Part shown: piece by piece, positions 48,512-64,000 of the stretch
How positions within the stretch are numbered: position 1 is the first letter of the stretch
Layout of the letters: every line of letters begins with the position of its first letter
Program-made: the position numbers and the translations under genes
The notes under the pieces: generated by a model
Databases searched by the model: none
The model's input: only the letters and a program-made list of their open reading frames with translations
Told to the model about the DNA's origin: nothing
Assembly: GCF_001659785.1 (NCBI RefSeq)
Contig: NZ_CP015961.1
Location: forward strand, 2,232,001 to 2,296,000
Reading direction: 5' to 3'
Origin: Dietzia timorensis
Lineage (GTDB): Bacteria > Actinomycetota > Actinomycetes > Mycobacteriales > Mycobacteriaceae
Length of the DNA stretch: 64,000 nucleotides

Positions 48512-49579
48512 CTAGCGCAGCTTGTCGAGGCCCGTCGCGACGAGTTCGCGGAGCAGTTCGCGCCCGCCGCCGTCATCGAAGGATTGGCCGGCCATGTCGC
48601 CGGCGGCGGCACGGGTGAACACGCCCTGCGCGATCGCAGTGAACTTGAATACCGAGAACGCGATGTACCAGTCGAGTAGCGCGGGGTCGGCGCCGGTCGC
48701 CGAACAATAACGGTCGATGAGATGCGCGGGACGCGGCCAGCCCGGTCGGTTCGTGATCGACGGCACCAGCGGCACCGGCGGCGCCGCAGAATCGCCCCAG
48801 TACAGCAGCGAAAGACCGAGGTCGGCGAGCGGATCGCCGAGCGTCGACAGCTCCCAATCCAGCACGGCGCGCACCGCACCCGGATCGGAGGCGTCGAGGA
48901 TGCAATTGTCGAGGCGGAAATCGCCGTGCACGATTCGGGTCGTCGGAGTCTCCGGACGCGTGGCCTCGAGCTTTCGCGCGAGCTCGCCGAACTCGTCGAG
49001 CTGGACGTGCTCCGCGGCCTTCGCGGATTGCTTCTGCCACCGCTCGAGCTGGCGTTCGAGGTAGCCGGTCGGCTTGCCGAGATCGCCGAGCCCCACCTCC
49101 TCCGGATCGATGCGGTGCAGCGCGACGAGCGCATCTATCAGAGCATCGGCGATCTGGGCCTTCTCCGCGTCGGAGTCGGCGTAGCCGGCGGGCAGCTCGT
49201 CGCGGATCACACGCCCCTCGACCTTTGCCATCACGTAATACGGCACACCGAGCCCGTCGCCATCGGCGTCGACGTGCAGAACCTTCGGCACGGGCACATC
49301 AGAACCGGCGAGACCTTTGAGGATCCGCGCCTCGCGTGCCATGTCGTGGGCGCTGGGCAAAAGTTTTCCTGACGGCGGACGGCGCAGAATTACTTCGCCC
49401 GCATCCGAGCGCAGCGTGAACGTGAGATTAGACTTCCCGCCCGCGATGAGCTCCGCACTTGGGTTAGTCCATGCCTGCTCGCCGGTCGCCTCGGCGATGG
49501 CCGGTCCCACCACATCGGGGCGCACGAGGTCCCAGTACTTCTCGGTGTCGGATGCTGCGTTCGGATTCTCTTCGACCAC
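48512..49579 (-). CDS. Phosphotransferase family protein (ACAD10/11-like kinase domain)
   Basis: A 355-residue aminoglycoside-phosphotransferase-fold protein. It has an N-terminal nucleotide lobe with GGKSNLTFTLRSDAGEVILR, the catalytic loop IVHGDFRLDNCIL (HGDxxxxN) and the metal-binding VLDWELSTLGDPLADLG. It is most like the group linked to acyl-CoA dehydrogenases (ACAD10/11), thought to phosphorylate 4-hydroxyacyl-CoA. The GTG start has GGGAGGGAAG upstream. The substrate is inferred only. Confidence 0.82.
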   Translation of the reverse strand: MVEENPNAASDTEKYWDLVRPDVVGPAIAEATGEQAWTNPSAELIAGGKSNLTFTLRSDAGEVILRRPPSGKLLPSAHDMAREARILKGLAGSDVPVPKVLHVDADGDGLGVPYYVMAKVEGRVIRDELPAGYADSDAEKAQIADALIDALVALHRIDPEEVGLGDLGKPTGYLERQLERWQKQSAKAAEHVQLDEFGELARKLEATRPETPTTRIVHGDFRLDNCILDASDPGAVRAVLDWELSTLGDPLADLGLSLLYWGDSAAPPVPLVPSITNRPGWPRPAHLIDRYCSATGADPALLDWYIAFSVFKFTAIAQGVFTRAAAGDMAGQSFDDGGGRELLRELVATGLDKLR

Positions 49580-49700
49580 GTGTCACTTCCCTCCCCTGCC
49601 GGCGCTGTCCCCGGCTCGACAACTGTGTCAAGCCTAGTGCTCCCGGGGCCGACGAGAAGCCTGTTCGGCGAAGAAGTTTCGCCGGGCAATTCGCGGCCTA

Positions 49701-50846
49701 GTGTCGCGCGTGTGAAGTAGTTTTACGGTTGGGTTTGTGAAATCATGGGGCATGGCGAATCGACCTGCCCCGGCATTGATGTTGCGTCCCGGCGATCGCG
49801 AGGAGCTCGAGACGATGACCCGTTCGCAGTCGATGTCGGCGGGGATGGTGCAGCGGGCGCGGATCGTGTTGCTGGCCACGGAGGGTCGGCGCAATGCTGA
49901 GATCGCGGAGCTGGCTGGAGCGTCGCGTCCGAAGGTGAATCTGTGGCGATCCAGGTATGAGGACAAGGGCATCGCGGGCCTGGTCGATGAGAAACGTTCT
50001 GGCCGGCCGCGCACGATTGATCACGCGGCGATCGTGACGGCGACGTTGATGCCGCCGCCGAAGAGTTTGGGCGTGACCCACTGGTCGTCGCGGTTGCTGG
50101 CGGCGCGGTTGAAGGTCTCGGCCTCGACGGTGGTCACGGCGTGGCGAGCCTATGGGATCAAGCCGTGGCGGGCCGAGTCGTTCCGGTTCTCTACCGATCC
50201 CGAGCTGGTCGGCAAGGTCACCGACATCTGCGGTCTGTACCTGGCGCCCCCGGAGAACGCGATCGTGCTGTGCGTGGACGAGAAATCTCAGATCCAGGCG
50301 CTGGATCGGACGCAGCCGATCTTGCCCATGCAGCCGGGACTGATCGAGCGGCGCAGCCACGACTACGTCCGGCACGGCACCACCACCTTGTTCGCGGCGC
50401 TGGATATCGCTACCGGGCAGGTCACCGCCGCCCTCAAGCCACGGCACCGAAACCAGGAGTTCCTGGCGTTCCTCAAGCAGATTGAGCGGGCCTACCGCGA
50501 CGCCGTTGACGCCGAGGGAAAGCCGGTCGAGTTGCACCTGGTGATGGACAATTACGCCGCCCACAAGCACGCGAACGTCAAGGCCTGGCTGGCTGACAAT
50601 CCCCGCTTCAAGGTGCACTTCACCCCGACTCACGCCTCGTGGATGAACCTGGTGGAGGTCTGGTTCGGGATCGTCGAACGCCAGGCCATTCGCCGAGGGG
50701 TCTTCACATCCGTCAAGGACCTCAACGCCAAGATTCGGGCCTTCATCGACGGCTGGAACAACCGCTCACACCCGTTCGTCTGGACGAAAACCGCCGAGGA
50801 AGTCCTCGCGAAAGCCAACCGTAACAACACTTCAAATGCGGACCAC
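49701..50846 (+). mobile_element. IS630-family insertion sequence, copy 1
   Basis: 1,146 bp. Imperfect 32-bp terminal inverted repeats (49701-49732 and 50815-50846; 24 of 32 match, best in the inner part ending TTACGGTTGG). Flanked by TA on both sides in a CTAG context, the established IS630 target. It carries one transposase gene. Only two base differences from copy 2 were found by comparing translations on both strands. Confidence 0.93.
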
Positions 50847-50849
50847 TAG
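49752..50849 (+). CDS. IS630-family DDE transposase, copy 1
   Basis: A 365-residue transposase. The N-terminal helix-turn-helix part has RNAEIAELAGASRPKVNLWR and a second winged section with LGVTHWSSRLLAARLKVSAS. The DDE catalytic domain has CVDEKSQIQALDR (Asp), LVMDNYAAHKHANVK (Asp) and THASWMNLVEVWF (Glu). Its stop codon TAG is completed by the target-site TA plus the following G, so the gene depends on the CTAG target for termination. A GTG at 49737 is an alternative start. Confidence 0.92.
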   Translation: MANRPAPALMLRPGDREELETMTRSQSMSAGMVQRARIVLLATEGRRNAEIAELAGASRPKVNLWRSRYEDKGIAGLVDEKRSGRPRTIDHAAIVTATLMPPPKSLGVTHWSSRLLAARLKVSASTVVTAWRAYGIKPWRAESFRFSTDPELVGKVTDICGLYLAPPENAIVLCVDEKSQIQALDRTQPILPMQPGLIERRSHDYVRHGTTTLFAALDIATGQVTAALKPRHRNQEFLAFLKQIERAYRDAVDAEGKPVELHLVMDNYAAHKHANVKAWLADNPRFKVHFTPTHASWMNLVEVWFGIVERQAIRRGVFTSVKDLNAKIRAFIDGWNNRSHPFVWTKTAEEVLAKANRNNTSNADH

Positions 50850-51194
50850 CAACGCGCGGCGCAGGTAGTTCACCACCTCGGGACGCCTGACCAGCATGTC
50901 GACAACCGCGTCGTTGCGGATCCGGGCGATGTCGGCGCCTGGGATGTCCACGGGCACCGAGGCAAGTGCGGTAGCGAAATGCTCTACGACCAGTCGCTCG
51001 ACCGCCTCGCGAAGGCCGTCCTTTGTGCCGTAGTGATGGACCACGAGACCCACCGTCACTCCGGCCGCGGTTGCCACGGTTCGCAACGAAGTGCCGTCCT
51101 CGCCGTTGGCGGCGTAGAGATCCAGTGCGGCGTTGCGGATGCGCGCCTTGGCAGTGAGATCCCGGCCCGCGGCGCCTGGTGCGGAACGATTCAC
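50832..51194 (-). pseudogene. TetR-family regulator truncated by the IS
   Basis: The first 115 or so residues are a normal TetR N-terminal part: ARIRNAALDLYAANGEDG, TSLRTVATAAGVTVGLVVHH, YGTKDGLREAVERLVVEHF. The frame then enters the IS630 end and picks up about 5 residues (VVRI and stop) from the terminal repeat. About 70-80 C-terminal residues are missing. The helix-turn-helix is intact, but the dimer-forming helices are lost, so it is probably inactive. The GTG start at 51194 has AAGGGGAA upstream. Confidence 0.82.
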
Positions 51195-51258
51195 GCGGTT
51201 CCCCTTCAGTTGCGGTCGAGCCTACGGACCCCAAACTAGACTATACGTCGGTACCGCT

Positions 51259-51278
51259 TACTGTATGTTCGTACAGTA
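51259..51278. promoter_or_regulatory. TetR-type operator next to the truncated tetR
   Basis: TACTGTA-TGTTCG-TACAGTA, perfect 7-bp arms, between the truncated tetR and the thioesterase gene. It resembles actinobacterial TetR operators. With its own repressor broken it may be free. Confidence 0.7.
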
Positions 51279-51490
51279 CAAGGTGTCCCGGCTCAGTCGG
51301 CCTTGTCGACCTGACTATCGTGCCGTCGACAGCCAGTTGCTCAGGCCACCCGCATCGGGCCTCAGGGCCCCTTGGACGTCCCGGTCAAAGGTTGGCTCAC
51401 GGGTCGGACGTGCGGGTGTCGGCGATATCTCCGTCGCCACAAGCCGAGGTATCGCACCCAGTACAACTTCATCGACAGGAAGGTCTGGAC

Positions 51491-52015
51491 ATGGACACAT
51501 TTCGCGACAAGGCCGGCGAGCCGATAGGTACCGATATCGACAACTGGGTGGCCTCGTTCACGCGCATGGAATCCGGTTCCTCCGAGCTTCCTCCCCACCA
51601 CCCCAACTGCCTTGGCTGTGGACCAGAGAACCCGAATGGTCACTTCCTCTCGGTACGGCGTGACGGAGACGGCGTCGTCGCACACCACCAGTTCGACCAG
51701 CGCCACGTCGGGGCACCGGGCATTGCACACGGCGGCGCGGTAGCGACCGTGATTGACGACCTCTTCGGCTTCTTGCTGTATTCGGTCGGCGAGCTCGCCG
51801 TGACGCGCCGTCTCGAGCTCGAGTATCTTGCGCCAGCACTACTCGACACCCCGTACATCCTGCGCGCTGCAGTTCGGTCTCGCGATGGCCGGAAATTGGA
51901 CCTCAAGTCCACGATGGAGGATGCAGAGGGCCGCACTGTTATTACTGCCACTGCCCTGTTCATCGTGGTCGAGGTTGAACACTTTTTGCAGTCACAGAGA
52001 AACTCGAGGGCTTAG
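51491..52015 (+). CDS. PaaI-family hotdog thioesterase
   Basis: A 174-residue hotdog-fold acyl-CoA thioesterase-like protein. Marks are HHPNCLGCGPENPNGHFLSV at the start, GHVGAPGIAHGGAVATVIDD with the catalytic-type HGG, then TRRLELEYLAPAL and KLDLKSTMEDAEGRTVITA. GGAAGG precedes ATG 51491. In the alkane cluster it could release fatty acids from CoA or prevent CoA sequestration; this is inference. Confidence 0.85.
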   Translation: MDTFRDKAGEPIGTDIDNWVASFTRMESGSSELPPHHPNCLGCGPENPNGHFLSVRRDGDGVVAHHQFDQRHVGAPGIAHGGAVATVIDDLFGFLLYSVGELAVTRRLELEYLAPALLDTPYILRAAVRSRDGRKLDLKSTMEDAEGRTVITATALFIVVEVEHFLQSQRNSRA

Positions 52016-52164
52016 GCCAAACTCACCGCCGCGAGCACCAGGCCCGAATACGTCGAGGGTGTCGGCGGAGCCTGAAGCTATTGAACGCCACGCCCAAAGA
52101 AAGGGCGAAGCTGAAGGCACCGTGCATTGCCAGTTGCCCTGTACGAGTCAACCAAGTGGCAGCG

Positions 52165-53166
52165 CTACCTACGACGGAACCCCGTCGGCGGGTGGCCGGT
52201 CCAGTGCTTGAAAGCGTGTGAAAAGCTGGCGAGGTCGCTATATCCGAGGTCCGTGGCGATCTCGCTCGCGGACACAGATCCGTCCAGTAAACGAAGAATC
52301 GCGTACTCAAGAATGATCGACTGGCGCAGTCCGCGATAGGTCATCCCTTCCTCAGAGAGGCGCCGCTTAAGTGTGCTCGTAGAGATGGAGAGTTCGTCTG
52401 CAATCCACTGACTTCCACAATCTGCGGGACGCTTCTCTATCAGACGTCTCACCTTGTCCGAATACGAGGCGATTTTACTCCGCTCGTCGAGCCTTCGCTG
52501 CAAGTCACTGATAGCGAGTCGATACGCCACGGGGTCAGAGAACCGGCAGACGTGATTGACCGCGTCAACGGGAAAATGCAGAATGGACAGTGAAGCGTCA
52601 AATACCAGGCGACCAGCTAACCAATCCTGATCCACGGGCAGACCTTCCGGAGCGGGCCAACCCAGTGAGAGTGTGATGTCTGGTGCATCGCCAACGAGTA
52701 TATTCAGCAGCCTCAGCAGGACCGCACCACAGTAGGTGACCACTAGGGAGTCTAGGACTCGATCGCCCGTCTGCCCATTGAGCGCGACAGACACTCCGTG
52801 TCCACCTGCGTAGAACTGCGCACTCAGGGCTGGGGTTATTAGCGGCAGGTAGGCAAGCAATTCCAATATCTCGCCTGCGGAACCTGCGCTTACTAGTGGG
52901 ACGCTTAATGGTCCGAAGGACGTCAGATGAGCATGCTGGGCGAACGCCAAACCGAGGGTCGTTGCTTGGTCAACGTCGAGGTCGGGCAAGGCTTCCCTGA
53001 TCCACCGCAGGGGAACTTGGGCGTTGATGGCGAGAAGTGACTCGACGTCGCTTCGCTCACGATCCATGATCTCGCGAAACCGTGCAACGGCGTCTTGCTC
53101 CAGAACTGGGCTCTCAAGTAACTGCGCGAACACGAGCGGTGGCACGCCCTCGCGATCAAGATTCAT
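52165..53166 (-). CDS. AraC-family regulator of the CYP153 operon (CypR-like)
   Basis: A 333-residue AraC/XylS regulator. The N-terminal arabinose-binding-like domain (about 10-200, type PF12625) is followed by two helix-turn-helix motifs at the C-terminus: CGSQWIADELSISTSTLKRR and SASEIATDLGYSDLASFSHA, ending FKHWTGHPPTGFRRR. It is divergent from the ferredoxin-P450 operon. In Dietzia an AraC protein next to CYP153 (CypR) is described as an alkane-responsive activator; the same role is inferred here. The ATG at 53166 is preceded by AAGGCGGGGG. Base composition is less GC-rich than the chromosome. Confidence 0.87.
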   Translation of the reverse strand: MNLDREGVPPLVFAQLLESPVLEQDAVARFREIMDRERSDVESLLAINAQVPLRWIREALPDLDVDQATTLGLAFAQHAHLTSFGPLSVPLVSAGSAGEILELLAYLPLITPALSAQFYAGGHGVSVALNGQTGDRVLDSLVVTYCGAVLLRLLNILVGDAPDITLSLGWPAPEGLPVDQDWLAGRLVFDASLSILHFPVDAVNHVCRFSDPVAYRLAISDLQRRLDERSKIASYSDKVRRLIEKRPADCGSQWIADELSISTSTLKRRLSEEGMTYRGLRQSIILEYAILRLLDGSVSASEIATDLGYSDLASFSHAFKHWTGHPPTGFRRR

Positions 53167-53284
53167 CGCCCCCGCCTTCTGAGCCAAATTAACAAGCTTC
53201 TGCCCTCAATCAACCTAGCCGCAGTCGTCGTTGTTAGCAATACTGTGAGCAGCTATTACCCGAACAACCATGCAGGAGCCAGCG

Positions 53285-53605
53285 ATGACAGTCGTAACCT
53301 TCGTCTCACATGACGGAGAGAAGCACGAGGTGCCCTTAGAGGAGGGGCAGTCACTCATGCGGATCGCCGTCAACAACGCGGTGCCCGGAATCGACGCCGA
53401 TTGCGGAGGCGAAGCCGCGTGCGGCACGTGTCATGTCATCGTTGATCCGCAATGGTCCGACGTGGTGGGCCTCTCGGGAGCAAGTGAAGAAGAGATGCTC
53501 TCAATGAACCCCGAACGGCTGCCGACCTCCCGACTGTCGTGCCAGATGACCGCGTCCGCGGATTGGGACGGCCTTACCGTCCAGGTGCCAGAGTTCCAGA
53601 TGTAA
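53285..53605 (+). CDS. [2Fe-2S] ferredoxin of the alkane hydroxylase system
   Basis: A 106-residue adrenodoxin/putidaredoxin-type ferredoxin. Cluster ligands are Cys40, Cys46 and Cys49 (DADCGGEAACGTCH) and Cys86 (RLSCQMT), the vertebrate-type spacing C-X5-C-X2-C-X36-C. It carries electrons from the reductase to the P450. CAGGAG precedes ATG 53285. It is first in the operon; its stop codon lies in a 17-bp tandem duplication. Confidence 0.93.
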   Translation: MTVVTFVSHDGEKHEVPLEEGQSLMRIAVNNAVPGIDADCGGEAACGTCHVIVDPQWSDVVGLSGASEEEMLSMNPERLPTSRLSCQMTASADWDGLTVQVPEFQM

Positions 53606-53626
53606 CGACGTTCCAGATGTAACGAC
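53593..53626 (+). repeat. 17-bp perfect tandem duplication at the ferredoxin stop codon
   Basis: GTTCCAGATGTAACGAC at 53593-53609 is repeated at 53610-53626. It duplicates the last codons and stop of the ferredoxin gene and widens the gap to the P450 start to 40 bases. Confidence 0.95.
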
Positions 53627-53645
53627 GAAAGACAAGGTGAGACAC

Positions 53646-55034
53646 GTGAAGGTTTCCGATACGATCGGCGACAAGGTTCAGTCGGCCATCCCGATGGATC
53701 TGCAGATCCGGGGCGCCCATCTGTACGACAGGACTCGGCGCTGGGTGACAAGGACGAATGGGAAGAAGCTTTTCGTAGAGAAGCCCATCCCCCCCGTCGA
53801 GGACGTCGAACTCGCCGACATCGACCTCAGTAATCCCTTTCTCTATCGGCAAGGACGCTGGCAGTCCTACTATGAGCGCCTGCGAAACGAGGCTCCGGTC
53901 CACTTTCAGCCCAACAGTGCGTTCGGGCCGTTCTGGTCAGTGACCCGACATGAAGACATCATCGCGGTCGATAAGAACCATGAGGTCTTCTCCGCCGAGC
54001 CGATGATAGTGATCGGGGCCCCGCCTCGTTTTCTCGATATTGAGATGTTCATCGCGATGGACCCACCGCGCCACGACGTGCAGCGAGCAGCTGTGCAGGG
54101 GGTGGTGGCGCCTAAGAACCTGCGCGAGATGGAGACGCTCATTCGGTCTCGGGTTCGCGAGGTACTAGACGACTTGCCGGTGAATCAGCCGTTCGACTGG
54201 GTCCAGACTGTCTCGATCGAACTGACAGCTCGAATGCTCGCGACGCTCTTGGACTTCCCCTACGAGGAACGTCGCAAACTCGTGTACTGGTCAGATATTG
54301 CAACTTCGTTCGAGGAAGCGAACGGTGGTCCTGCGGACCTCGACGAGTCGTTCGACGGAATGCGCGAGATGGCGAGCGGTCTGAGTTCTCTGTGGTACGA
54401 CAAGAAGGCTCGGTTAGCAGAGGGGGAGGAACCCGGTTTCGACCTGGTCACCATGCTGCAGAGCAACGAGAACACCAAGGATCTGATCGACCGCCCGATG
54501 GAATTCATGGGCAACTTTGTGCTGTTGATCGTCGGAGGGAACGATACGACCCGGAACTCGATGAGTGGTGGCGTTCTGGCGCTGAACCGGTTCCCAGACC
54601 AGTTCGAAAAGCTCAAGTCCAACCCTGACCTGATCCCCAACATGGTCTCCGAGATAATCCGGTGGCAAACGCCGCTGGCCTACATGCGCCGAATCGCCAA
54701 GACTGACACTATCTTGAACGGTCAGTTCATCCGTAAGGGTGACAAGGTCGTGATGTGGTACGCCTCAGGCAACCGCGACGAGCGTGTGTTCGAGCGGCCC
54801 GATGACTTCATCATCGACCGGGCCAACGTCCGCAACCACATCTCCTTCGGGTTCGGCGTACACCGGTGCATGGGCAACCGACTGGCCGAAATGCAGCTGC
54901 GGATCCTCTGGGAAGAGCTGCTCCCCCGCTTCGAGAACATCGAGGTCGTCGGCGAACCCGAGTACGTGCAGTCCAACTTCGTTCGCGGCATCAGCAAGAT
55001 GATGGTGCGCCTCACCCCGAAATCCGGCACATGA
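53646..55034 (+). CDS. Cytochrome P450 CYP153, medium-chain alkane terminal hydroxylase
   Basis: A 462-residue soluble P450 of the CYP153 family. It has the I-helix oxygen-activation motif GGNDTTRNS (297-305), the K-helix ExxR (Glu336-Arg339, MVSEIIRWQTP), and the heme loop FGFGVHRCMGNRLAE with Cys408. Family-specific stretches are DIDLSNPFLYRQGRW, FGPFWSVTRHEDII and FIAMDPPRHDVQR. CYP153 enzymes oxidise C5-C12 alkanes and terpenes at the terminal carbon. The 50-residue N-terminal extension and several stretches resemble, from memory, the Marinobacter/Alcanivorax enzymes more than the 420-residue mycobacterial CYP153A6. The GTG at 53646 has AAGG upstream. ATGA overlap with the reductase gene. 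Confidence 0.93.
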   Translation: MKVSDTIGDKVQSAIPMDLQIRGAHLYDRTRRWVTRTNGKKLFVEKPIPPVEDVELADIDLSNPFLYRQGRWQSYYERLRNEAPVHFQPNSAFGPFWSVTRHEDIIAVDKNHEVFSAEPMIVIGAPPRFLDIEMFIAMDPPRHDVQRAAVQGVVAPKNLREMETLIRSRVREVLDDLPVNQPFDWVQTVSIELTARMLATLLDFPYEERRKLVYWSDIATSFEEANGGPADLDESFDGMREMASGLSSLWYDKKARLAEGEEPGFDLVTMLQSNENTKDLIDRPMEFMGNFVLLIVGGNDTTRNSMSGGVLALNRFPDQFEKLKSNPDLIPNMVSEIIRWQTPLAYMRRIAKTDTILNGQFIRKGDKVVMWYASGNRDERVFERPDDFIIDRANVRNHISFGFGVHRCMGNRLAEMQLRILWEELLPRFENIEVVGEPEYVQSNFVRGISKMMVRLTPKSGT

Positions 55035-56251
55035 CATCGCAGCGAGCCCTCATCATCGGTGCCAGCCATGCCGGAGCCCAACTCGCGGCGAGCCTACGGC
55101 AGGACGGGTGGAGCGGTGAGATCGTCCTCATCGGCGAGGAGCCCACGGTGCCCTACCAGCGCCCGCCACTGTCGAAGGCGTATCTCGCCGGGAAAACCAC
55201 CCTCGACGAGATCACCATCCGCAGTTCGGACTTCTACTCCAAGCAGCGAATCCAGCTTCTCAACGCGCACGTGGAGGCGATCGACCGCTCGGCTGGGCAC
55301 ATCGTTATGAGCACCGGCGACACACTGACATACGACAAGCTCGCGCTGTGCACGGGAGCCCGCCCTCGTCAGCTCCGCGTTCCTGGGGCCGATCTCCCCG
55401 GGGTCCATTACCTTCGTACCGCCGCAGACGTCGAGAAGATCCGCACGTCCGCCACCCCCGGGCGGCGAGTGGTGATCGTCGGGGGCGGCTACATCGGACT
55501 TGAGACGGCCGCCTCACTACGGGCACTGGACCTGGACGTCACCGTGCTCGAGGCGACCACTCGCGTCCTCGAGCGGGTCACTGCTCCCGACGTATCAACG
55601 TTCTTCGAGCGGATCCACCGAGAGGAGGGCATCGATATCCGAACGGGCGCCAAAGTCGCAGCATTAGTCGGAGACGACTGCGTCCGCGAGGTCACACTAT
55701 CTACTGGCGAGTCGATCCCGGCTGATCTGGTCATCGTGGGCATCGGTGTTGAACCGAGAACAGAACTCGCCGACGCTGCGGGTCTCGTGGTCGACAACGG
55801 CATCGTGATCGACGACCATGCCCGGACCGAGGACCCCGACATCGTGGCCGCCGGAGATTGCACAAGCCATGACATCGCCCGTTACGGCTGCCGTATACGC
55901 ATGGAGTCCGTGTCGAGTGCGGGGGAGCAGGCCAAGGTCGCCGCCTCGACCATCTGCGGAAAATCTAGGAAGATCGAGGCGCTTCCCTGGTTCTGGTCAG
56001 ATCAATACGATCTCAAGCTGCAGATCGCCGGTCTCAACACCGGTTACGACGAAGTCGTCCTCAGCGGTGACCCCACCCGGGACCGCGACTTCAGCTGCTT
56101 CTACCTCCGTGATGGCGAACTCCTTGCTGCAGACTGCATCAACCGCCCCCGCGATTTCATGCTCAGCAAGCGAGCCATCACCCAGCAGCGTCCTTTCGTC
56201 CGGACCGATTTCGCCCATACGGGTTCTCCCGATTCCTTTCGCAATGGGTAA
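55031..56251 (+). CDS. Ferredoxin reductase of the P450 system
   Basis: A 406-residue FAD-dependent NAD(P)H:ferredoxin reductase of the putidaredoxin-reductase type. It has an FAD site GASHAGAQLAASL near residue 10, VPYQRPPLSKAYL, a NAD site VVIVGGGYIGLETAASLR near 140, and the second FAD motif DPDIVAAGDCTSH near 272. It completes the NADH-to-P450 chain with the ferredoxin. It starts at the ATGA overlap with the P450 stop codon. Confidence 0.93.
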   Translation: MTSQRALIIGASHAGAQLAASLRQDGWSGEIVLIGEEPTVPYQRPPLSKAYLAGKTTLDEITIRSSDFYSKQRIQLLNAHVEAIDRSAGHIVMSTGDTLTYDKLALCTGARPRQLRVPGADLPGVHYLRTAADVEKIRTSATPGRRVVIVGGGYIGLETAASLRALDLDVTVLEATTRVLERVTAPDVSTFFERIHREEGIDIRTGAKVAALVGDDCVREVTLSTGESIPADLVIVGIGVEPRTELADAAGLVVDNGIVIDDHARTEDPDIVAAGDCTSHDIARYGCRIRMESVSSAGEQAKVAASTICGKSRKIEALPWFWSDQYDLKLQIAGLNTGYDEVVLSGDPTRDRDFSCFYLRDGELLAADCINRPRDFMLSKRAITQQRPFVRTDFAHTGSPDSFRNG

Positions 56252-56371
56252 GCCAGTCCCGAGCGAGACTCGCACGGTCAGCGGCGGAGCCTCGACGAAC
56301 GGCGCTGACATCCCACTGGCGCAGCAAGAGAGCCCGGTTCGTGCCCGCCTGCCGTTCAGAAAGGAACTCTG

Positions 56372-57433
56372 ATGACTCGCCAGACGCTCATCGAGAACTA
56401 TCCACATCGGGTCGGGGGGCACTGCGGCTCAGCCGCGATGCGAGACCTCCTGCACTGGCAAGGCCTCGGCTGGGAAGGACCGCCCGATGAAGGTCTCGTC
56501 TTCACCCTCGGGGGGTCACTTGGCCTGTCCTACTTGCGCTCGAGCGACCTCTTCCCGCCGCTTTATCTGGTAGGGAGAGACTCCGATTTCGAAGTAAATC
56601 TCCCCCATCTACTGGGCGCACAGGTCCAAGTGCTCACGACCGACGATCCCCGAGAAGGATGGTCGTGGATTAGCCAGGAGGTCGATGCCGGAAGGCCAGC
56701 CCTGATATGGGGCGACATCGCGGAGTTGCCCTACCTGCGGGTTCGGCTCCAAATGAGTCGCCACGATATCGTGGTAATTGGTTACGACGAGGCGGAGAGG
56801 ATCGCCTTCGTTGTTGACAACGACCGTGCCGAGGTCCAAAAGGTTCCGTTCGACGCTCTCGCTCGAGCACGGTCGTCGATGTCATTCCCACAACCGACAC
56901 GTCACACCACGTACCGCATCGCCTGGCCGCATGAGTTACCAGACCTTGCGCAGGTTGCCGCAGCGGCTTTCCGTCAATCGGCAGCGAACATGCGCCACCC
57001 AACTCCGCCAGGAGTCGTTGATCTCACGACCGCGGTGAGCGGTTCCGAAGGCTTAGCAGCGGTCGCCCAGCTCGCCGCTGATGTCCGGACTTGGTCCCAT
57101 CTACCGGCTGACGAACTCGAGATCCTCTTATTCAGCTTGAGCGCTTTCATCGAGAAGGCCGGCACCGGTGGCGGCCTGTTCCGAAAGCTGCTCGCTGACG
57201 GCTGCGCGGACGTGGCACGTTTGACCGGTGACCTCGCGACCGAAGATCTCGCCGTAGCCGCCAGACACTGTGCCCAGACATGGACGGAGGCCGGCCGAGC
57301 CGGGATCGAGCACGAGGTCGATGTGCGTACTCGGCTGGAACGTGTGGCTTCGGCGGTTAGCCTCCTGCCCACGCTCGAGCTTCAACTGGCTGAAGCTCTG
57401 GAGTCAGCTTCGCGATCGCTTGCAACAGCCTGA
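56372..57433 (+). CDS. BtrH-like (BtrH_N / DUF4872) protein
   Basis: A 353-residue protein with a papain-like acyltransferase fold at its N-terminus as in BtrH, which transfers an aminoacyl group from a carrier protein in butirosin synthesis. Candidate catalytic residues are Cys18 in GGHCGSAAMRDLL, His131 in RHDIVVIGYDE and Asp149 in FVVDNDRAE. The C-terminal helical part (about 175-353) fits DUF4872. A good AAAGGAA precedes the ATG. It lies 120 bases after the reductase gene, so it could be co-transcribed with the P450 operon. No carrier protein is nearby; the substrate is unknown. Confidence 0.78.
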   Translation: MTRQTLIENYPHRVGGHCGSAAMRDLLHWQGLGWEGPPDEGLVFTLGGSLGLSYLRSSDLFPPLYLVGRDSDFEVNLPHLLGAQVQVLTTDDPREGWSWISQEVDAGRPALIWGDIAELPYLRVRLQMSRHDIVVIGYDEAERIAFVVDNDRAEVQKVPFDALARARSSMSFPQPTRHTTYRIAWPHELPDLAQVAAAAFRQSAANMRHPTPPGVVDLTTAVSGSEGLAAVAQLAADVRTWSHLPADELEILLFSLSAFIEKAGTGGGLFRKLLADGCADVARLTGDLATEDLAVAARHCAQTWTEAGRAGIEHEVDVRTRLERVASAVSLLPTLELQLAEALESASRSLATA

Positions 57434-57604
57434 CTAATCGGGAAGTCAAAACTGGACGGTAGAAGTTCCGGCCGCACTCAGACTGCAGCGGATGGCTCGC
57501 CGCCGCTCGCACCGAAACGACCGGGCTCTAGGGTTGCCTCGCCACCTCCCCGGCGACCTCGGCGATCGAGCGGTCACACCCATCCGACAAGAAGAAGCCC
57601 CGAT

Positions 57605-58291
57605 TTAGCGAGATCCGCCGGCGCCAGGGCGGTTCAGGTCGTGGATGGACTCGGCCGGGATGGGTTCGCCTCCCTGCTTGCGGGCAGCAAGAAAATCATC
57701 AACGAGTTGCACGCATCCGTCGTGGTCGACGGTGCAGAGCCCAGTAAGGCGAGCGAACACGACGGGACCCAGGAGTTGAACGATCGCGAAGGTGGTGTCG
57801 ACGTTGCCGAGCTGTGCTCGAACGTCAGGCTGTGTGAGGATGCGGTCAAAGGGCTGCCGGTATACCTCGATGACTCGACTACGCAGTGAGGTGATCGCGG
57901 CCGAATCGGCAGGATCGCCGCCGACTGATCCGATTGACAGCCAAGCCAGAGTCGTAATGTTCAGCGGCGCCTGGTCAATCAGGTCGGCTTGGGCCGTGAG
58001 AAGCGCGATGAGTTGGTCTCGTACCGACCCACTGTCGGCAGAGACCTCGACGCGAGGCAACAGCCGCTCGAAGGTCGCCGCAAGCAACTGGGCGGTCCCG
58101 CCGAAATGCCGATAGAGCGTGGCCCGCGCAACCTTTGACATTCGAGTGACCGCCTCGACGGTAACCGCCTCTACACCGCCAGTGCTCAGGAGATGCGTGG
58201 CAGCGTCGAGCAATCGTTTTCGTGAGCGCAGCAGTCGCGGATCGAGCTGATCGTCGTCCGTAGCGGGCCGGTCAGCACTCCAGTCGTTCAC
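57605..58291 (-). CDS. TetR-family regulator of the adjacent efflux gene
   Basis: A 228-residue TetR protein: helix-turn-helix in SRKRLLDAATHLLSTGG, VEAVTVEAVTRMSKVARATL, YRHFGGTAQLLAATFERL, then a helical ligand domain with a TetR_C-like LRSRVIEVYRQPFDRIL. The GTG start at 58291 has a strong GGGGGAGA upstream; a longer frame to 58354 is less likely. It is divergent from the DHA2 transporter, so it probably represses it. Confidence 0.87.
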   Translation of the reverse strand: MNDWSADRPATDDDQLDPRLLRSRKRLLDAATHLLSTGGVEAVTVEAVTRMSKVARATLYRHFGGTAQLLAATFERLLPRVEVSADSGSVRDQLIALLTAQADLIDQAPLNITTLAWLSIGSVGGDPADSAAITSLRSRVIEVYRQPFDRILTQPDVRAQLGNVDTTFAIVQLLGPVVFARLTGLCTVDHDGCVQLVDDFLAARKQGGEPIPAESIHDLNRPGAGGSR

Positions 58292-58409
58292 GCTCTCCCC
58301 CTTCGGCCGACGGTCACTTCTCGTCCAAGCTAACCTGTCCAACCAACCGAACACTGTGATACTACTTGTCTCAGACCAAGACCGATCATCTCACAGCAAG
58401 GGGCCGGCG

Positions 58410-59987
58410 ATGCACTCACCGCAACAGACCATCACCGAGTCATCCCGGTGGACCCGAGCCGAATGGTGGATGCTCACGGTGTCGTGCCTAGCCGTGGCGT
58501 TGGTGGTCGCGGCCATGGCCGCGCTGTATTCGGCATTACCGGAGATTGCGGTAGAGACTGGAGCGACGCAAGCCCAGCTGACCTGGATCGTCGACGGCTA
58601 CACGCTGGTACTGGCGTGCCTGGTCCTGCCCGCTGGAGCGATCGGTGACCGCTATGGCAGACGCGCAGTTCTCGTAATAGGCCTGGCGATATTCACCATG
58701 GCGTCCGCACTTCCCCTGCTGCTGTCTGACCCGGCCTGGTTGATCGCTGCGCGAGCGATTGCCGGGGCGGGCGCTGCACTGGTAATGCCCTCGACGCTCT
58801 CGATTCTGACTGCTGGTTTCGCCGCCGTTCATCGCGGCCGAGCAGTAGGTGTGTGGGCTGGAGTCGCCGGGTCCGGAGCAGTGTTAGGCATCCTCGGCGC
58901 CGGGGTGTTGCTTGAGCGCTGGTCGTGGGTGTCGGTATTTGTCGGACTGACCGCAGCGGGAGCCCTACTGGCCGCGCTGGCATGCACGATCGCTGAGTCC
59001 AGCCAGCATGATCACCCTCCCGTGGACTGGGTGGGCGCGGCGGCAGCTGCAGTCGCGGTTGCGGGAATCGTATTCGCCACGATCGAGTTTCCCGCGCGGG
59101 GCTGGGCCGACCCGATCGTTCTCGCCAGCGCCGGGGCCGGCATGTTGGCGACAGCCTTTTTTATCCTGATTGAGCTGCGATCCTCGGCCCCCTTGTTGGA
59201 TGTTCGGTTGTTCGCCAAGCGCGGCTTCAGCGCCGGCTCGTTGTCGGTGGCCATCCAATTCTTGGTCACTTTCGGGGTATTCCTACTCCTGGTGCAGTAC
59301 CTGCAACTGATCCTGGGATACGGACCGCTGGCCTCGGCGTTGGGATTGGTGCCGATGACGGTCCCCCTGATCGTGATCTCGGTGATCGCCCCCCGACTGT
59401 CACAGCGATTTGGACTACGAGTGATGACCGTCGCCGGTCTGGTGACCATCGCAGTTGGCCTGATGCTGGTGAGCAGGCTGACCGTCGACGCACGTTACCT
59501 CGACCTGCTATGGCCGCTGTTGATCATGAGCGCAGGGCTCGGACTATGCACAGCCCCGGCGACCTACGCGATCATCGCCGAAACTCCGGAGAGCAAACAC
59601 GGGGTCGCCGCCGCAGTCAACGATGCGGCCCGCGAGATCGGCGCTGCGATGGGGATCGCAGTGGCCGGCAGTGTGCTGGCCGCCGGATACACCCGCCACA
59701 TCCAACCCGCCCTGCCTCAGTTACCCGAACCTGCCCGCGGTCCGGTCTCCGACTCCCTGGCCGCCGCCCTAGAGATCGCCGCACAAGCCGGACCAATGGC
59801 GCAACCATTGGTCGACTACGCCAAAGAGGCATTTGTCAACGGCAGCAGTCAGGCCACACTTACGTTGGCAATCCTCACCGCCGCAGCCGCAGTCTTGCTA
59901 GCGATCCTTGCCCCGGGCACTGCTCCGCGTGACCACAAGACCACGGCCAGTTCCACAGCACCGGCACACCGGGACAGCGTCGGATAG
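58410..59987 (+). CDS. DHA2-family 14-helix efflux MFS transporter
   Basis: A 525-residue drug:H+ antiporter-2 protein. Features are LYSALPEIAVETGATQAQLT and WIVDGYTLVLACLVLPAGAI near the start, the loop motif GDRYGRRAVLVIG, and motif C ALVMPSTLSILTAGF. It has about 14 membrane segments and a Thr/Ser-rich tail. AAGGGG precedes ATG 58410. Its place beside the hydroxylase operon suggests export of toxic alkane products or solvents, but simple drug efflux is equally likely. Confidence 0.88.
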   Translation: MHSPQQTITESSRWTRAEWWMLTVSCLAVALVVAAMAALYSALPEIAVETGATQAQLTWIVDGYTLVLACLVLPAGAIGDRYGRRAVLVIGLAIFTMASALPLLLSDPAWLIAARAIAGAGAALVMPSTLSILTAGFAAVHRGRAVGVWAGVAGSGAVLGILGAGVLLERWSWVSVFVGLTAAGALLAALACTIAESSQHDHPPVDWVGAAAAAVAVAGIVFATIEFPARGWADPIVLASAGAGMLATAFFILIELRSSAPLLDVRLFAKRGFSAGSLSVAIQFLVTFGVFLLLVQYLQLILGYGPLASALGLVPMTVPLIVISVIAPRLSQRFGLRVMTVAGLVTIAVGLMLVSRLTVDARYLDLLWPLLIMSAGLGLCTAPATYAIIAETPESKHGVAAAVNDAAREIGAAMGIAVAGSVLAAGYTRHIQPALPQLPEPARGPVSDSLAAALEIAAQAGPMAQPLVDYAKEAFVNGSSQATLTLAILTAAAAVLLAILAPGTAPRDHKTTASSTAPAHRDSVG

Positions 59988-60130
59988 GTGGCCCGTCCGG
60001 CTTCCGGCTGCACTGACTCGTGCCTGGAGAAACTGCGCAAGGTCAGCAAGAACCGCGGTCCCTCCCGAGTGCCGAATCTCGACGGTCGAGCTGCTGTGGC
60101 TAGCGATACCCACCATCTTCAGGGCGGGGG

Positions 60131-60712
60131 TCAGTGGCTGGTGCGTCCACGCCCGCCCGCTTCAACGCGCTGTAGTGCGCGGTAGAGCGTGGATCGGCTA
60201 ACTCCGAGATTGCGGGCGATCACTGACGGCCCCTCCCCTGCCTCGATGCGGGCCCGGGCTTTGTCGACCTGCTCGGCGGTCAGGACTCGCTTACGACCCT
60301 TGTACTTGCCCTTCGCCTTAGCGATGGCAATGCCCTCAGCCTGACGTTCACGAATGATGGCCCGCTCGAACTCGGCGAACGCCCCGAGCAGCGAAAGCAT
60401 CAGATCCGCTCGAGGATCCTGGGCGCCGGCGGCGTAGGTAGCCCGTTCATGGACAAACTCCACACTCGCGCCCTTGGCAGTGACCTCACCAACGATCTGC
60501 TTGAGATCAACCAGGGAACGAGCGAGTCTGTCCATTGACGCGACGACGAGCTCGTCACCGTCGCGCAGGTACCCGATGCACTCGGCGAGCTTCTCGCGAT
60601 CGGCGCGCGAGCGCGCAGACTGCTTTTCGACATAGACCCGATCACACTCCCCCACCGCCTCGAGCTGACGCGCCTCATTCTGATCCGCAGCCGACACCCG
60701 CACATAGGCCAC
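60131..60712 (-). CDS. Serine recombinase (Tn3-type resolvase/invertase), 5' end at a junction
   Basis: About 193 residues from a GTG at 60712. The catalytic domain has VAYVRVSAADQNEARQLEAV with Ser8 as nucleophile, ELVVASMDRLARSLVDL, and a FAEFERAIIRERQAEGI helix E. The C-terminal helix-turn-helix is GPSVIARNLGVSRSTLYRAL. Normal resolvases begin a few residues earlier (xGQRVAYVRVS). The frame is open upstream for 31 codons, but that sequence overlaps the LGFP fragment on the other strand, so the native start is probably lost or replaced. Remnant of a Tn3-like element; no res site was recognised. Confidence 0.8.
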   Translation of the reverse strand: MAYVRVSAADQNEARQLEAVGECDRVYVEKQSARSRADREKLAECIGYLRDGDELVVASMDRLARSLVDLKQIVGEVTAKGASVEFVHERATYAAGAQDPRADLMLSLLGAFAEFERAIIRERQAEGIAIAKAKGKYKGRKRVLTAEQVDKARARIEAGEGPSVIARNLGVSRSTLYRALQRVEAGGRGRTSH

Positions 60713-60721
60713 CCTCTGCCC

Positions 60722-61161
60722 GCGCGGACGCGAAGCCCGGCGAACCGGCCGCAAATGGCGGAGAAGCTCAAAACTTTGCCAACGGACGCAACTACTGGCA
60801 TCCACTTGTCGCCAACGGCTTCGCCAATGCCGTCTGGGGGAGAATCGGGGAGCGCTACTTGGAACTCGGAGCTGAGGCAGGGAGCCTGATGTACCCCACC
60901 AGCAACGAATTGCCGTGCCCCAACCGTGGATTTTGCTCCTTCAACCGATTCGAAACCGGAAACATATATTGGTCGCCGACCACCAACGCCCAAGCAGTGT
61001 GGGGAGCGATCTTTCAGGAATACGGAAGACAGGGCTACGAGAACGGCAGGTTCGGGCTGCCCACGACCAGCGAATTCGACACCCCGGACGGAAAACAGGT
61101 GAACTTTGAAGGAGGCTGGATTCGCTGGATCCGCAATACAGGGGCGTTGATCACTTCCTAA
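60722..61161 (+). pseudogene. 5'-truncated LGFP-repeat protein
   Basis: About 140 codons without a start or signal peptide. Two LGFP-like repeats are seen: IGERYLELGAEAGSLMYPTS and FQEYGRQGYENGRFGLPTTS, each followed by FNRFETGNIYWSP and VNFEGGWIRW. The upstream end meets the resolvase gene head-on at about 60,712-60,750, which marks a recombination joint. It is the C-terminus of an envelope protein like that at 5082-5663. Confidence 0.75.
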
Positions 61162-61206
61162 GGCGGACTCGGTAGCCGCGAGCGCTGCCCCTAGAAGGGT
61201 ATGCAA

Positions 61207-62304
61207 CTAGTGGTCCGCATTTGAAGTGTTGTTACGGTTGGCTTTCGCGAGGACTTCCTCGGCGGTTTTCGTCCAGACGAACGGGTGTGAGCGGTTGTTC
61301 CAGCCGTCGATGAAGGCCCGAATCTTGGCGTTGAGGTCCTTGACGGATGTGAAGACCCCTCGGCGAATGGCCTGGCGTTCGACGATCCCGAACCAGACCT
61401 CCACCAGGTTCATCCACGAGGCGTGAGTCGGGGTGAAGTGCACCTTGAAGCGGGGATTGTCAGCCAGCCAGGCCTTGACGTTCGCGTGCTTGTGGGCGGC
61501 GTAATTGTCCATCACCAGGTGCAACTCGACCGGCTTTCCCCCGGCGTCAACGGCGTCGCGGTAGGCCCGCTCAATCTGCTTGAGGAACGCCAGGAACTCC
61601 TGGTTTCGGTGCCGTGGCTTGAGGGCGGCGGTGACCTGCCCGGTAGCGATATCCAGCGCCGCGAACAAGGTGGTGGTGCCGTGCCGGACGTAGTCGTGGC
61701 TGCGCCGCTCGATCAGTCCCGGCTGCATGGGCAAGATCGGCTGCGTCCGATCCAGCGCCTGGATCTGAGATTTCTCGTCCACGCACAGCACGATCGCGTT
61801 CTCCGGGGGCGCCAGGTACAGACCGCAGATGTCGGTGACCTTGCCGACCAGCTCGGGATCGGTAGAGAACCGGAACGACTCGGCCCGCCACGGCTTGATC
61901 CCATAGGCTCGCCACGCCGTGACCACCGTCGAGGCCGAGACCTTCAACCGCGCCGCCAGCAACCGCGACGACCAGTGGGTCACGCCCAAACTCTTCGGCG
62001 GCGGCATCAACGTCGCCGTCACGATCGCCGCGTGATCAATCGTGCGCGGCCGGCCAGAACGTTTCTCATCGACCAGGCCCGCGATGCCCTTGTCCTCATA
62101 CCTGGATCGCCACAGATTCACCTTCGGACGCGACGCTCCAGCCAGCTCCGCGATCTCAGCATTGCGCCGACCCTCCGTGGCCAGCAACACGATCCGCGCC
62201 CGCTGCACCATCCCCGCCGACATCGACTGCGAACGGGTCATCCTCTCGAGCTCCTCGCGATCGCCGGGACGCAACATCAATGCCGGGGCAGGTCGATTCG
62301 CCAT
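61207..62304 (-). CDS. IS630-family DDE transposase, copy 2
   Basis: A 365-residue transposase identical to copy 1 except for two residues: Arg for Thr in REELERMTRS near the start and Gly for Glu in AVDAGGKPVEL. The catalytic DDE residues are intact, so both copies may be active. Its stop codon TAG is again completed by the target TA and G. Confidence 0.92.
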   Translation of the reverse strand: MANRPAPALMLRPGDREELERMTRSQSMSAGMVQRARIVLLATEGRRNAEIAELAGASRPKVNLWRSRYEDKGIAGLVDEKRSGRPRTIDHAAIVTATLMPPPKSLGVTHWSSRLLAARLKVSASTVVTAWRAYGIKPWRAESFRFSTDPELVGKVTDICGLYLAPPENAIVLCVDEKSQIQALDRTQPILPMQPGLIERRSHDYVRHGTTTLFAALDIATGQVTAALKPRHRNQEFLAFLKQIERAYRDAVDAGGKPVELHLVMDNYAAHKHANVKAWLADNPRFKVHFTPTHASWMNLVEVWFGIVERQAIRRGVFTSVKDLNAKIRAFIDGWNNRSHPFVWTKTAEEVLAKANRNNTSNADH

Positions 62305-62355
62305 GCCCCATGATTTCACAAACCCAACCGTAAAACTACTTCACACGCGCGACAC
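61210..62355 (-). mobile_element. IS630-family insertion sequence, copy 2 (inverted)
   Basis: 1,146 bp, the same length as copy 1. Terminal repeats at 61210-61241 and 62324-62355. TA at 61208-61209 and 62356-62357 in CTAG contexts. Confidence 0.93.
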
Positions 62356-62394
62356 TAGTCATGCGCGATCGCGCTCGGCACCTATGCACGCACG

Positions 62395-62485: not shown

Positions 62486-63859
62486 CTAAGCCGAGCGTGC
62501 GACGCTGGCGGGCGCCTTGCCTCCGTCGGGCTGACCCGGCGTGAACTCGGCGAGCATCTCGGTGACGAGCTCCGCGATCGGCGAACGCTCCGAACGCGTG
62601 AGCGTGACGTGGGCAAAGAGCTTGTTGCCCTTGAGCTTTTCGATGACCGCGCCGATACCGTCGTGGCGGCCCACGCGAAGATTGTCGCGCTGGGCGACGT
62701 CATGGGTGAGTGCGACGCGAGATCCCGAGCCCAGCCGCGAGAGGACCGTGAGAAGCACGTTGCGTTCGAGGGACTGCGCCTCGTCGACGATGACGAAGGA
62801 GTCATGGAGGGATCGGCCACGGATATGGGTCAGCGGGAGCACTTCGAGGATGTCCCGGTCCATTACCTCGTCGATGACGTTTTCGGAGACCAGGCCTTCG
62901 AGGGTGTCGAATACGGCCTGCGACCACGGGCTCATCTTCTCGGCTTCCGAACCCGGTAGGTAGCCGAGCTCCTGGCCGCCGACCGCATACAGCGGACGGA
63001 ACACCACGATGCGGCGCTGTTCGCGGCGCTCGAGCACCGCCTCGAGACCGGCGCAGAGCGCCAGGGCGGACTTGCCGGTACCGGCGCGTCCGCCGAGCGA
63101 CACGATCCCGACTTCCGGGTCGGTGAGCAGGTCGAGGGCGAGGCGCTGCTCGAAGGAGCGCCCACGCATCCCGAAGATGTCCCGGTCCCCCTTGACGAGG
63201 CGAAGGGTGCCGCCCTGCGCGACGCGAGCCATCGCGCTCGACGAGCCGGCCTGGAGCTTGAGACCGCAATGGATGGGCAGATCGGCGACGTCATTGGCGT
63301 TGAAGAGCGCGCGGGTGGCGGCATGGTCCAGGGAACCGGTTCCGAACAGAGCGTCGATGTCCTCGGGCGAGGCTCCGAGCTCTGCGGTGCCGGTGTAACC
63401 GGTGAGCATGACGTCCTGGGCGCGGTATTCTTCGGCGTCCATGCCAACCGCGCCGGCCTTGACGCGAAGAGGGATGTCCTTGGAGACGAGGACGGTGTCC
63501 GCACCCTCGGCGCGGAGATTGAGCGCGCACGCGAGGATGCGCGAGTCGTTCCCTGTGTCGCGGAAGCCCGAGGGCAACACCGTCTGGTCCGTGTGGTTGA
63601 GTTCCACGCGCAGGGTGCCGCCCTCTGGGGTGACCTCGATGTCTCCGTCCAGACGGCCGTAGCGGGAGCGGAATTCCTCCAACAGTCGGAGGGCCTCTCG
63701 CGCGAAGTAGCCGAGTTCCGGATGGTGGCGTTTGCCCTCGAGCTCGCCGATGACGGCGATGGGCAAGACGACCTCGTGTTCGGCGAATCTGCTGATCGCC
63801 CACGGATCGGAGAGCAACACCGAAGTGTCGAGGACGTAAGTACGAATGGTCTGTGCCAC
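62486..63859 (-). CDS. phoH2: PhoH2: PIN domain fused to PhoH ATPase
   Basis: A 457-residue fusion. The N-terminal PIN-type RNase domain (about 1-150) has [16 protein letters not shown] and [12 protein letters not shown] acidic residues. The C-terminal PhoH ATPase domain has Walker [14 protein letters not shown] near 255 and Walker [12 protein letters not shown] near 355, followed by [18 protein letters not shown]. In mycobacteria PhoH2 is an ATP-dependent RNA helicase/RNase. The GTG start at 63859 has GAGGAGA upstream. It belongs to the conserved block with fumC, now separated from it by the transposon. Confidence 0.93.
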
Positions 63860-64000
63860 GGGAATCTCCTCGCCCCGGGGCGCCCCAGGGCGTCGTTGGT
63901 GTCGGATTACCTCTGGTGCGGTCCGAACGTTCTCGGGCCGATCCGCAAGTCGCCATTGGCGGCGTCTTACAAGGGCCACGCTACGGAGCGCGGGTGAGAA

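Follow-up and report, generated by a model that had tools for sequence, protein, structure and literature searches.

The window analyzed here is a stretch of 64,000 nucleotides from Dietzia timorensis (contig NZ_CP015961.1, positions 2,232,001 to 2,296,000), and the subject of the analysis is a 12.66-kb unit between fumC and phoH2 in which two copies of an IS630-family insertion sequence (IS) enclose a cargo of about 10.4 kb that includes a cytochrome P450 of the CYP153 type. The genes and borders are listed in Table 1. A single inverted repeat pair of this kind is present in the window, with arms of 1,152 bp each (49698-50849 and 61207-62358) and 10,357 bp between them, and trimming of the TA targets leaves 1,146 bp per IS copy. 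Over the 1,152 aligned positions, in which the CTAG edges are counted, the left and right copies differ by 2 mismatches, located at 49813 (C/G) and 50515 (A/G) in the coordinates of the left copy. The repeat alignment bears out a preliminary description of this DNA, which had proposed two inverted 1,146-bp IS630 copies with about two differences around 10.4 kb. The set of AraC regulator, ferredoxin, CYP153 and reductase that it had placed in the cargo was also found, accompanied by a cut TetR gene, a thioesterase, a BtrH-like protein, a second TetR gene, a major facilitator superfamily (MFS) transporter, a resolvase and an LGFP fragment.

Table 1. Features of the IS630-bounded unit and its flanks in window coordinates (aa, amino acids; ORF, open reading frame).
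Feature	Coordinates	Strand	Remark
APH-family gene, left flank outside the unit	48512..49579	-	
TA target, left outer end	49699..49700	.	flank reads C-TA
Left IS630-family copy, 1,146 bp	49701..50846	+	
Left transposase, 370 aa, intact	49737..50849	+	DDE_3 / IS630
TetR gene cut by left IS	50832..51194	-	120-aa ORF against 209-212 aa in 6/6 relatives translated
TA, left inner end	50847..50848	.	uninterrupted CTAG in 7/7 other records read
4HBT thioesterase	51491..52015	+	plasmid relative annotated as PaaI family
AraC-family regulator	52165..53187	-	
2Fe-2S ferredoxin	53270..53605	+	
CYP153-type cytochrome P450	53637..55034	+	probable alkane hydroxylase
FAD-dependent ferredoxin reductase	54866..56251 (as listed ORF)	+	true start likely near 55031, judging from the plasmid annotation
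BtrH_N/DUF4872 protein	56372..57433	+	
TetR-family regulator	57605..58354	-	
MFS transporter	58356..59987	+	
Serine resolvase/invertase	60131..60805	-	Pfam Resolvase domain complete
LGFP-repeat fragment	60757..61161	+	
Right transposase, 370 aa, intact	61207..62319	-	
TA, right inner end	61208..61209	.	
Right IS630-family copy, 1,146 bp	61210..62355	-	
TA target, right outer end	62356..62357	.	flank reads TA-G
phoH2, right flank outside the unit	62486..63979	-	

The transposases of both IS copies are encoded in unbroken frames of 370 aa, with two residue differences between them (T/R and E/G). The left transposase exceeded the threshold of the NCBIfam IS630 model NF033545 (251 bits, cut-off 100), and both proteins matched the Pfam DDE_3 domain PF13358 with 76.8 and 76.3 bits (cut-off 28.6). 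The terminal inverted repeats of the IS match at 24 of 32 positions, and all four IS borders sit in CTAG, a tetranucleotide with 54 occurrences in the window, where base composition would predict about 212. The DDE-domain transposase, the TA target within CTAG and the terminal inverted repeats place the element in the IS630 family, and the presence of two near-identical copies around a cargo, with both transposase frames unbroken and the outer ends preserved, corresponds to the structure of a composite transposon. The same IS, also bordered by CTAG, was found on plasmid pDK313-98 of Dietzia kunjamensis. Each window copy carries one base change of its own relative to that element, so the IS pair looks young. 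No third copy was found at E 0.001 or better in this genome (G000), which is a single contig of 3,607,892 bp. In another Dietzia genome, a 90% identical IS630 copy lies between fumC and glpX, a few kb from the equivalent site (L033, G002 contig C18).

In terms of the cargo, close relatives of most of it are located on plasmids. Window positions 50846-60389 are 97.1% identical to plasmid pII of Dietzia sp. DQ12-45-1b, positions 50846-60059 are 96.0% identical to plasmid pRJH4 of Rhodococcus pyridinivorans, and positions 57538-60747 are 98.1% identical to a plasmid of Dietzia oral taxon 368; no IS630 is annotated in the fetched stretches of these three plasmids. Matches that start exactly at the CTAG of the left border were obtained for pII, pRJH4 and 5 of the 400 other genomes of the family (G011, G019, G020, G065 and G094), and the CTAG is uninterrupted in all seven of these records. 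The TetR gene is whole in the six that were translated (pII, pRJH4, G020, G011, G065 and G094), with a product of 209 aa, or 212 aa in G094, whereas the TetR frame of the window is interrupted by the left IS and reaches only 120 aa. The severed half of the gene does not lie beside the cut gene and was not found elsewhere in this genome, in which the best match is 74% identical. Because the CTAG is uninterrupted and TetR whole elsewhere, and the severed half was not found here, it follows that the left IS was inserted into a CTAG of the TetR gene, an event that most likely took place on another molecule.

Outside the IS pair, none of the fetched stretches of pII, pRJH4 and the oral taxon 368 plasmid gave a match (E 1e-10). 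The right outer flank had no match among plasmid records, and comparison of the left outer flank with four fetched plasmid stretches gave only a few matching bases at the IS edge. The cargo is also present in G011, G020 and G021 at 96-100% DNA identity, and G020, a single-contig genome, holds most of it without the IS. A scan of named genomes for CYP153, in which the best 80 of 576 stretches were considered and the IS borders were inspected for one locus (L109), gave no match above 89%. In view of the 96-100% identity seen in G011, G020 and G021, records near this genome seem to be absent from that scan. Base composition was considered as proof of foreignness and not used, as it is a weak indicator here (seven cargo segments have 58-66% G+C, compared with 64.4% in window positions 1-49697).

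A second species shares most of the cargo and the right cargo/IS border of the unit. In G021, contig C41 (10,170 bp) corresponds to window positions 51446-61615 with 12 mismatches and extends 409 bp past the right cargo/IS border. The phoH2 gene of G021, another Dietzia species, is nevertheless only 78% identical to that of the window, and its fumC-phoH2 gap is 0.17 kb, so that the unit is not located there (L005). Among 401 genomes of the family, with two candidates scored per genome, the right border was found in G000 and G021 only. The last 450 bp or so of the cargo are rarer than the rest: apart from the match in G021, they gave two partial plasmid matches of about 70% and 85 bp at 98% identity in G010. 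The LGFP fragment is 100% identical in G021, and the rest of the genus gave relatives of at most 50% plus one 25-residue match at 92% (G010). An origin of this fragment from the locus itself was rejected, as the LGFP matches beside phoH2 in some congeners are only about 31-43% identical, against 100% for the fragment in G021. The genome of G021 also contains plasmid-backbone-like contigs that are 90% identical to pII; no exact end overlap joining C41 to six other G021 contigs was found. The severed TetR half was not found in G021 either, which fits the presence of a left IS there but is no proof of it, because the first 596 bp of the cargo are unassembled in that genome.

At the chromosomal site, the preliminary description had regarded the outer genes as a normal set of neighbors. 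The fumC-phoH2 gap, which is 14 kb in the window, is short in 21 of 22 congeners: it measures 0.05-0.9 kb between alignment ends in 20 of them (0.77 kb in G006) and 2.3 kb in G018, a value that goes against a uniform gap below 0.9 kb. The remaining congener, G022, lacks a full-length match to phoH2, so its gap was not judged. The APH-family gene on the fumC side is extra. Of the two congeners whose layouts were inspected, G016 has an APH relative about 13 kb beyond phoH2, and G006 also has one on the far side of phoH2. A second APH copy, 64% identical, is present in this genome at C1:2768129.

Taken together, the data indicate that the 12.66-kb unit is very probably an IS630-family composite transposon that carries a plasmid-type CYP153 module. 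The earlier proposal of a composite transposon is strengthened by the CTAG and TetR gene that are whole elsewhere, by the severed TetR half that was not found in the genome, by the lack of plasmid sequence outside the IS pair in the stretches compared, by the short distance between fumC and phoH2 in 21 of 22 congeners, and by the cargo and right border shared with a second species whose fumC-phoH2 locus is empty. Neither cargo at this locus without the IS copies nor a separate empty site for each IS came up, with the nearest phoH2 being only 79% identical. IS630 elements move by a cut-and-paste mechanism. In the sequence of events that we propose, the alkane genes of a Dietzia plasmid would first have become flanked through the insertion of two IS copies. 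Working on the outermost pair of IS ends, the transposase would next have cut out the 12.66-kb unit and pasted it into a chromosomal CTAG, with the APH gene on one side and phoH2 on the other, and the TA would have been duplicated. The outer flanks, which read C-TA and TA-G, are as expected from one insertion into CTAG. Owing to the inverted orientation of the IS copies, both outer ends of the unit are the same IS end, and given the 24 of 32 positions at which the left and right IS ends match, the pairing of like ends is plausible on sequence grounds. Recombination between the inverted copies could also flip the cargo.

Several observations weigh against this interpretation. At its outer borders the unit has the same IS end twice and not the natural left-right pair. 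The extra APH gene, with relatives that lie beyond phoH2 in other congeners, implies that the locus has changed more than once. As phoH2 is at most 79% identical in other genomes, no close relative is among the genomes compared, and a joined empty site with a single CTAG was not seen. An intact donor site for the right border was not found among plasmids and genus genomes, and the left IS/cargo border was found in G000 only among the 401 family genomes, with two candidates scored in each. Contig C41 of G021 starts at cargo base 597 and stops 409 bp inside the right IS, so it is without the left border, and the G021 assembly lacks the first 596 bp of the cargo and the remainder of the right IS. 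Moreover, the TA at each outer end would equally follow two separate IS insertions.

Separate insertions would be part of an alternative history in which a plasmid fragment entered the chromosome by other means and the two IS copies were inserted at its edges afterwards. The single-contig genome G020, with most of the cargo and without this IS, would also be compatible with such a history. However, in the plasmid stretches compared no related sequence lies outside either IS, the severed TetR half was not found in the genome, the genome has no other copy of this IS, and the right border is common to another species, and this explanation is considered improbable. A plasmid with one IS may instead have recombined with an IS resident in the chromosome, followed by loss of the plasmid DNA, and the related MobF plasmids of the genus and the backbone-like stretches elsewhere in G000 speak for this route. 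Simple recombination of this kind would, however, give direct IS copies with the whole plasmid between them, and as neither was observed, it is regarded as very improbable. The formation of a plasmid cointegrate by IS homology was rejected on the orientation of the IS copies and the missing backbone.

A further explanation shares its origin with the composite transposon and differs from it with respect to present activity, in that the unit would have moved once as a composite and would now be an inert fossil. The two residues at which the transposases differ, with one change per copy relative to the pDK313-98 element, and the single site in the genome are what such a fossil might show. Both frames are nevertheless whole, both outer ends are kept, and the near-identity with G021 points to recent movement, so that inertness is possible but doubtful. 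The opposite proposal is that the unit is a live natural composite, mobilized through identical ends, that is now transferring a complete module for alkane oxidation among the plasmids and chromosomes of Dietzia species that are only distantly related, and it is likewise put forward tentatively, as something that may well not be the case.

With regard to the function of the cargo, the P450 was compared with solved structures and matched the P450 alkane hydroxylase 8b2p (E 8e-204), CYP153A7 (3rwl, E 1.3e-139) and CYP153D17 (5h1z, E 2.3e-109); five better structure matches bear only the name Cytochrome P450. None of the NCBIfam P450 models reached its own cut-off with this protein. The AraC regulator scored 80.3 bits against the NCBIfam CypR model (cut-off 500), and it is assigned to the AraC family and not, by this model, to CypR. 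Judged from the protein families alone, the cargo should allow alkane hydroxylation by the host.

Parts of the cargo and of the IS were also observed elsewhere. The segment 51229-52755, which covers the thioesterase gene and a portion of the AraC gene, has two further 98% identical copies in G000, at C1:424109-425632 (L088) and 566018-567541 (L087). The L087 copy has an ISL3-type gene on one side and, on the other, two genes for 466-aa DDE transposases in the same orientation. Many Dietzia genomes contain the resolvase stretch 60165-60749 at about 84-88%, and many of these matches end near 60749, which is also close to the end of the match to the oral taxon 368 plasmid and possibly marks a recombination crossover. 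Three genomes (L109 on G012 C78, G008 C530 and G019 C518) carry a different CYP153 cluster of 74-77% similarity and, about 4 kb away from it, an end fragment of about 354 bp from an IS630 that is 90-91% identical. Two sets of stretches in G000 (C1:351155-354763 and 412833-416443) are mostly 72-73% similar to the pII backbone, which suggests duplicated remnants of an integrated plasmid.

If the unit is indeed a composite transposon, it would show concretely how a catabolic P450 module passes from plasmid to chromosome in actinobacteria, and it would be a natural case in which two IS630-family copies seem to have mobilized a large cargo. It would also make it possible to test directly whether two identical ends can be paired by an IS630 transposase across 12.7 kb. 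Among the papers listed in literature searches on IS630 and on alkane hydroxylase transposons, none describes an IS630 composite with alkane genes in its title or abstract opening, and passages from three further papers gave no account of an IS630 composite in action. None of the papers listed for Dietzia timorensis is, by its title, a description of the genome of that species.

The gene order of the CYP153 modules on pII and pRJH4, from TetR to MFS, is the same as in the window, with 96-97% DNA identity. The plasmid modules differ in that no IS630 is annotated at their borders and TetR is whole; instead of IS630, pII has an IS21 element nearby and pRJH4 an IS1380 element. IS630 elements have been grouped with the Tc1/mariner elements (PMC2170065), and composites of this family are not unprecedented, according to the title of one study and one putative case. 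The title of Tenzen and Ohtsubo 1991 (J Bacteriol 173:6207, cited in PMC2170065) refers to IS630-associated composite transposition into CTAG. As far as that title describes it, the 1991 system resembles the window unit in the IS630 family, the composite structure and the TA within CTAG, and the window unit, in which the IS copies are inverted, is distinguished by its natural appearance, its alkane cargo and its actinobacterial host. The other case is in Tardiphaga vice278, where two identical inverted IS630 copies around an operon are termed a putative composite (PMC7701988). Those copies are 45.7 kb apart and enclose the XR (rhodopsin) operon, while the cargo of the window unit is an alkane module.

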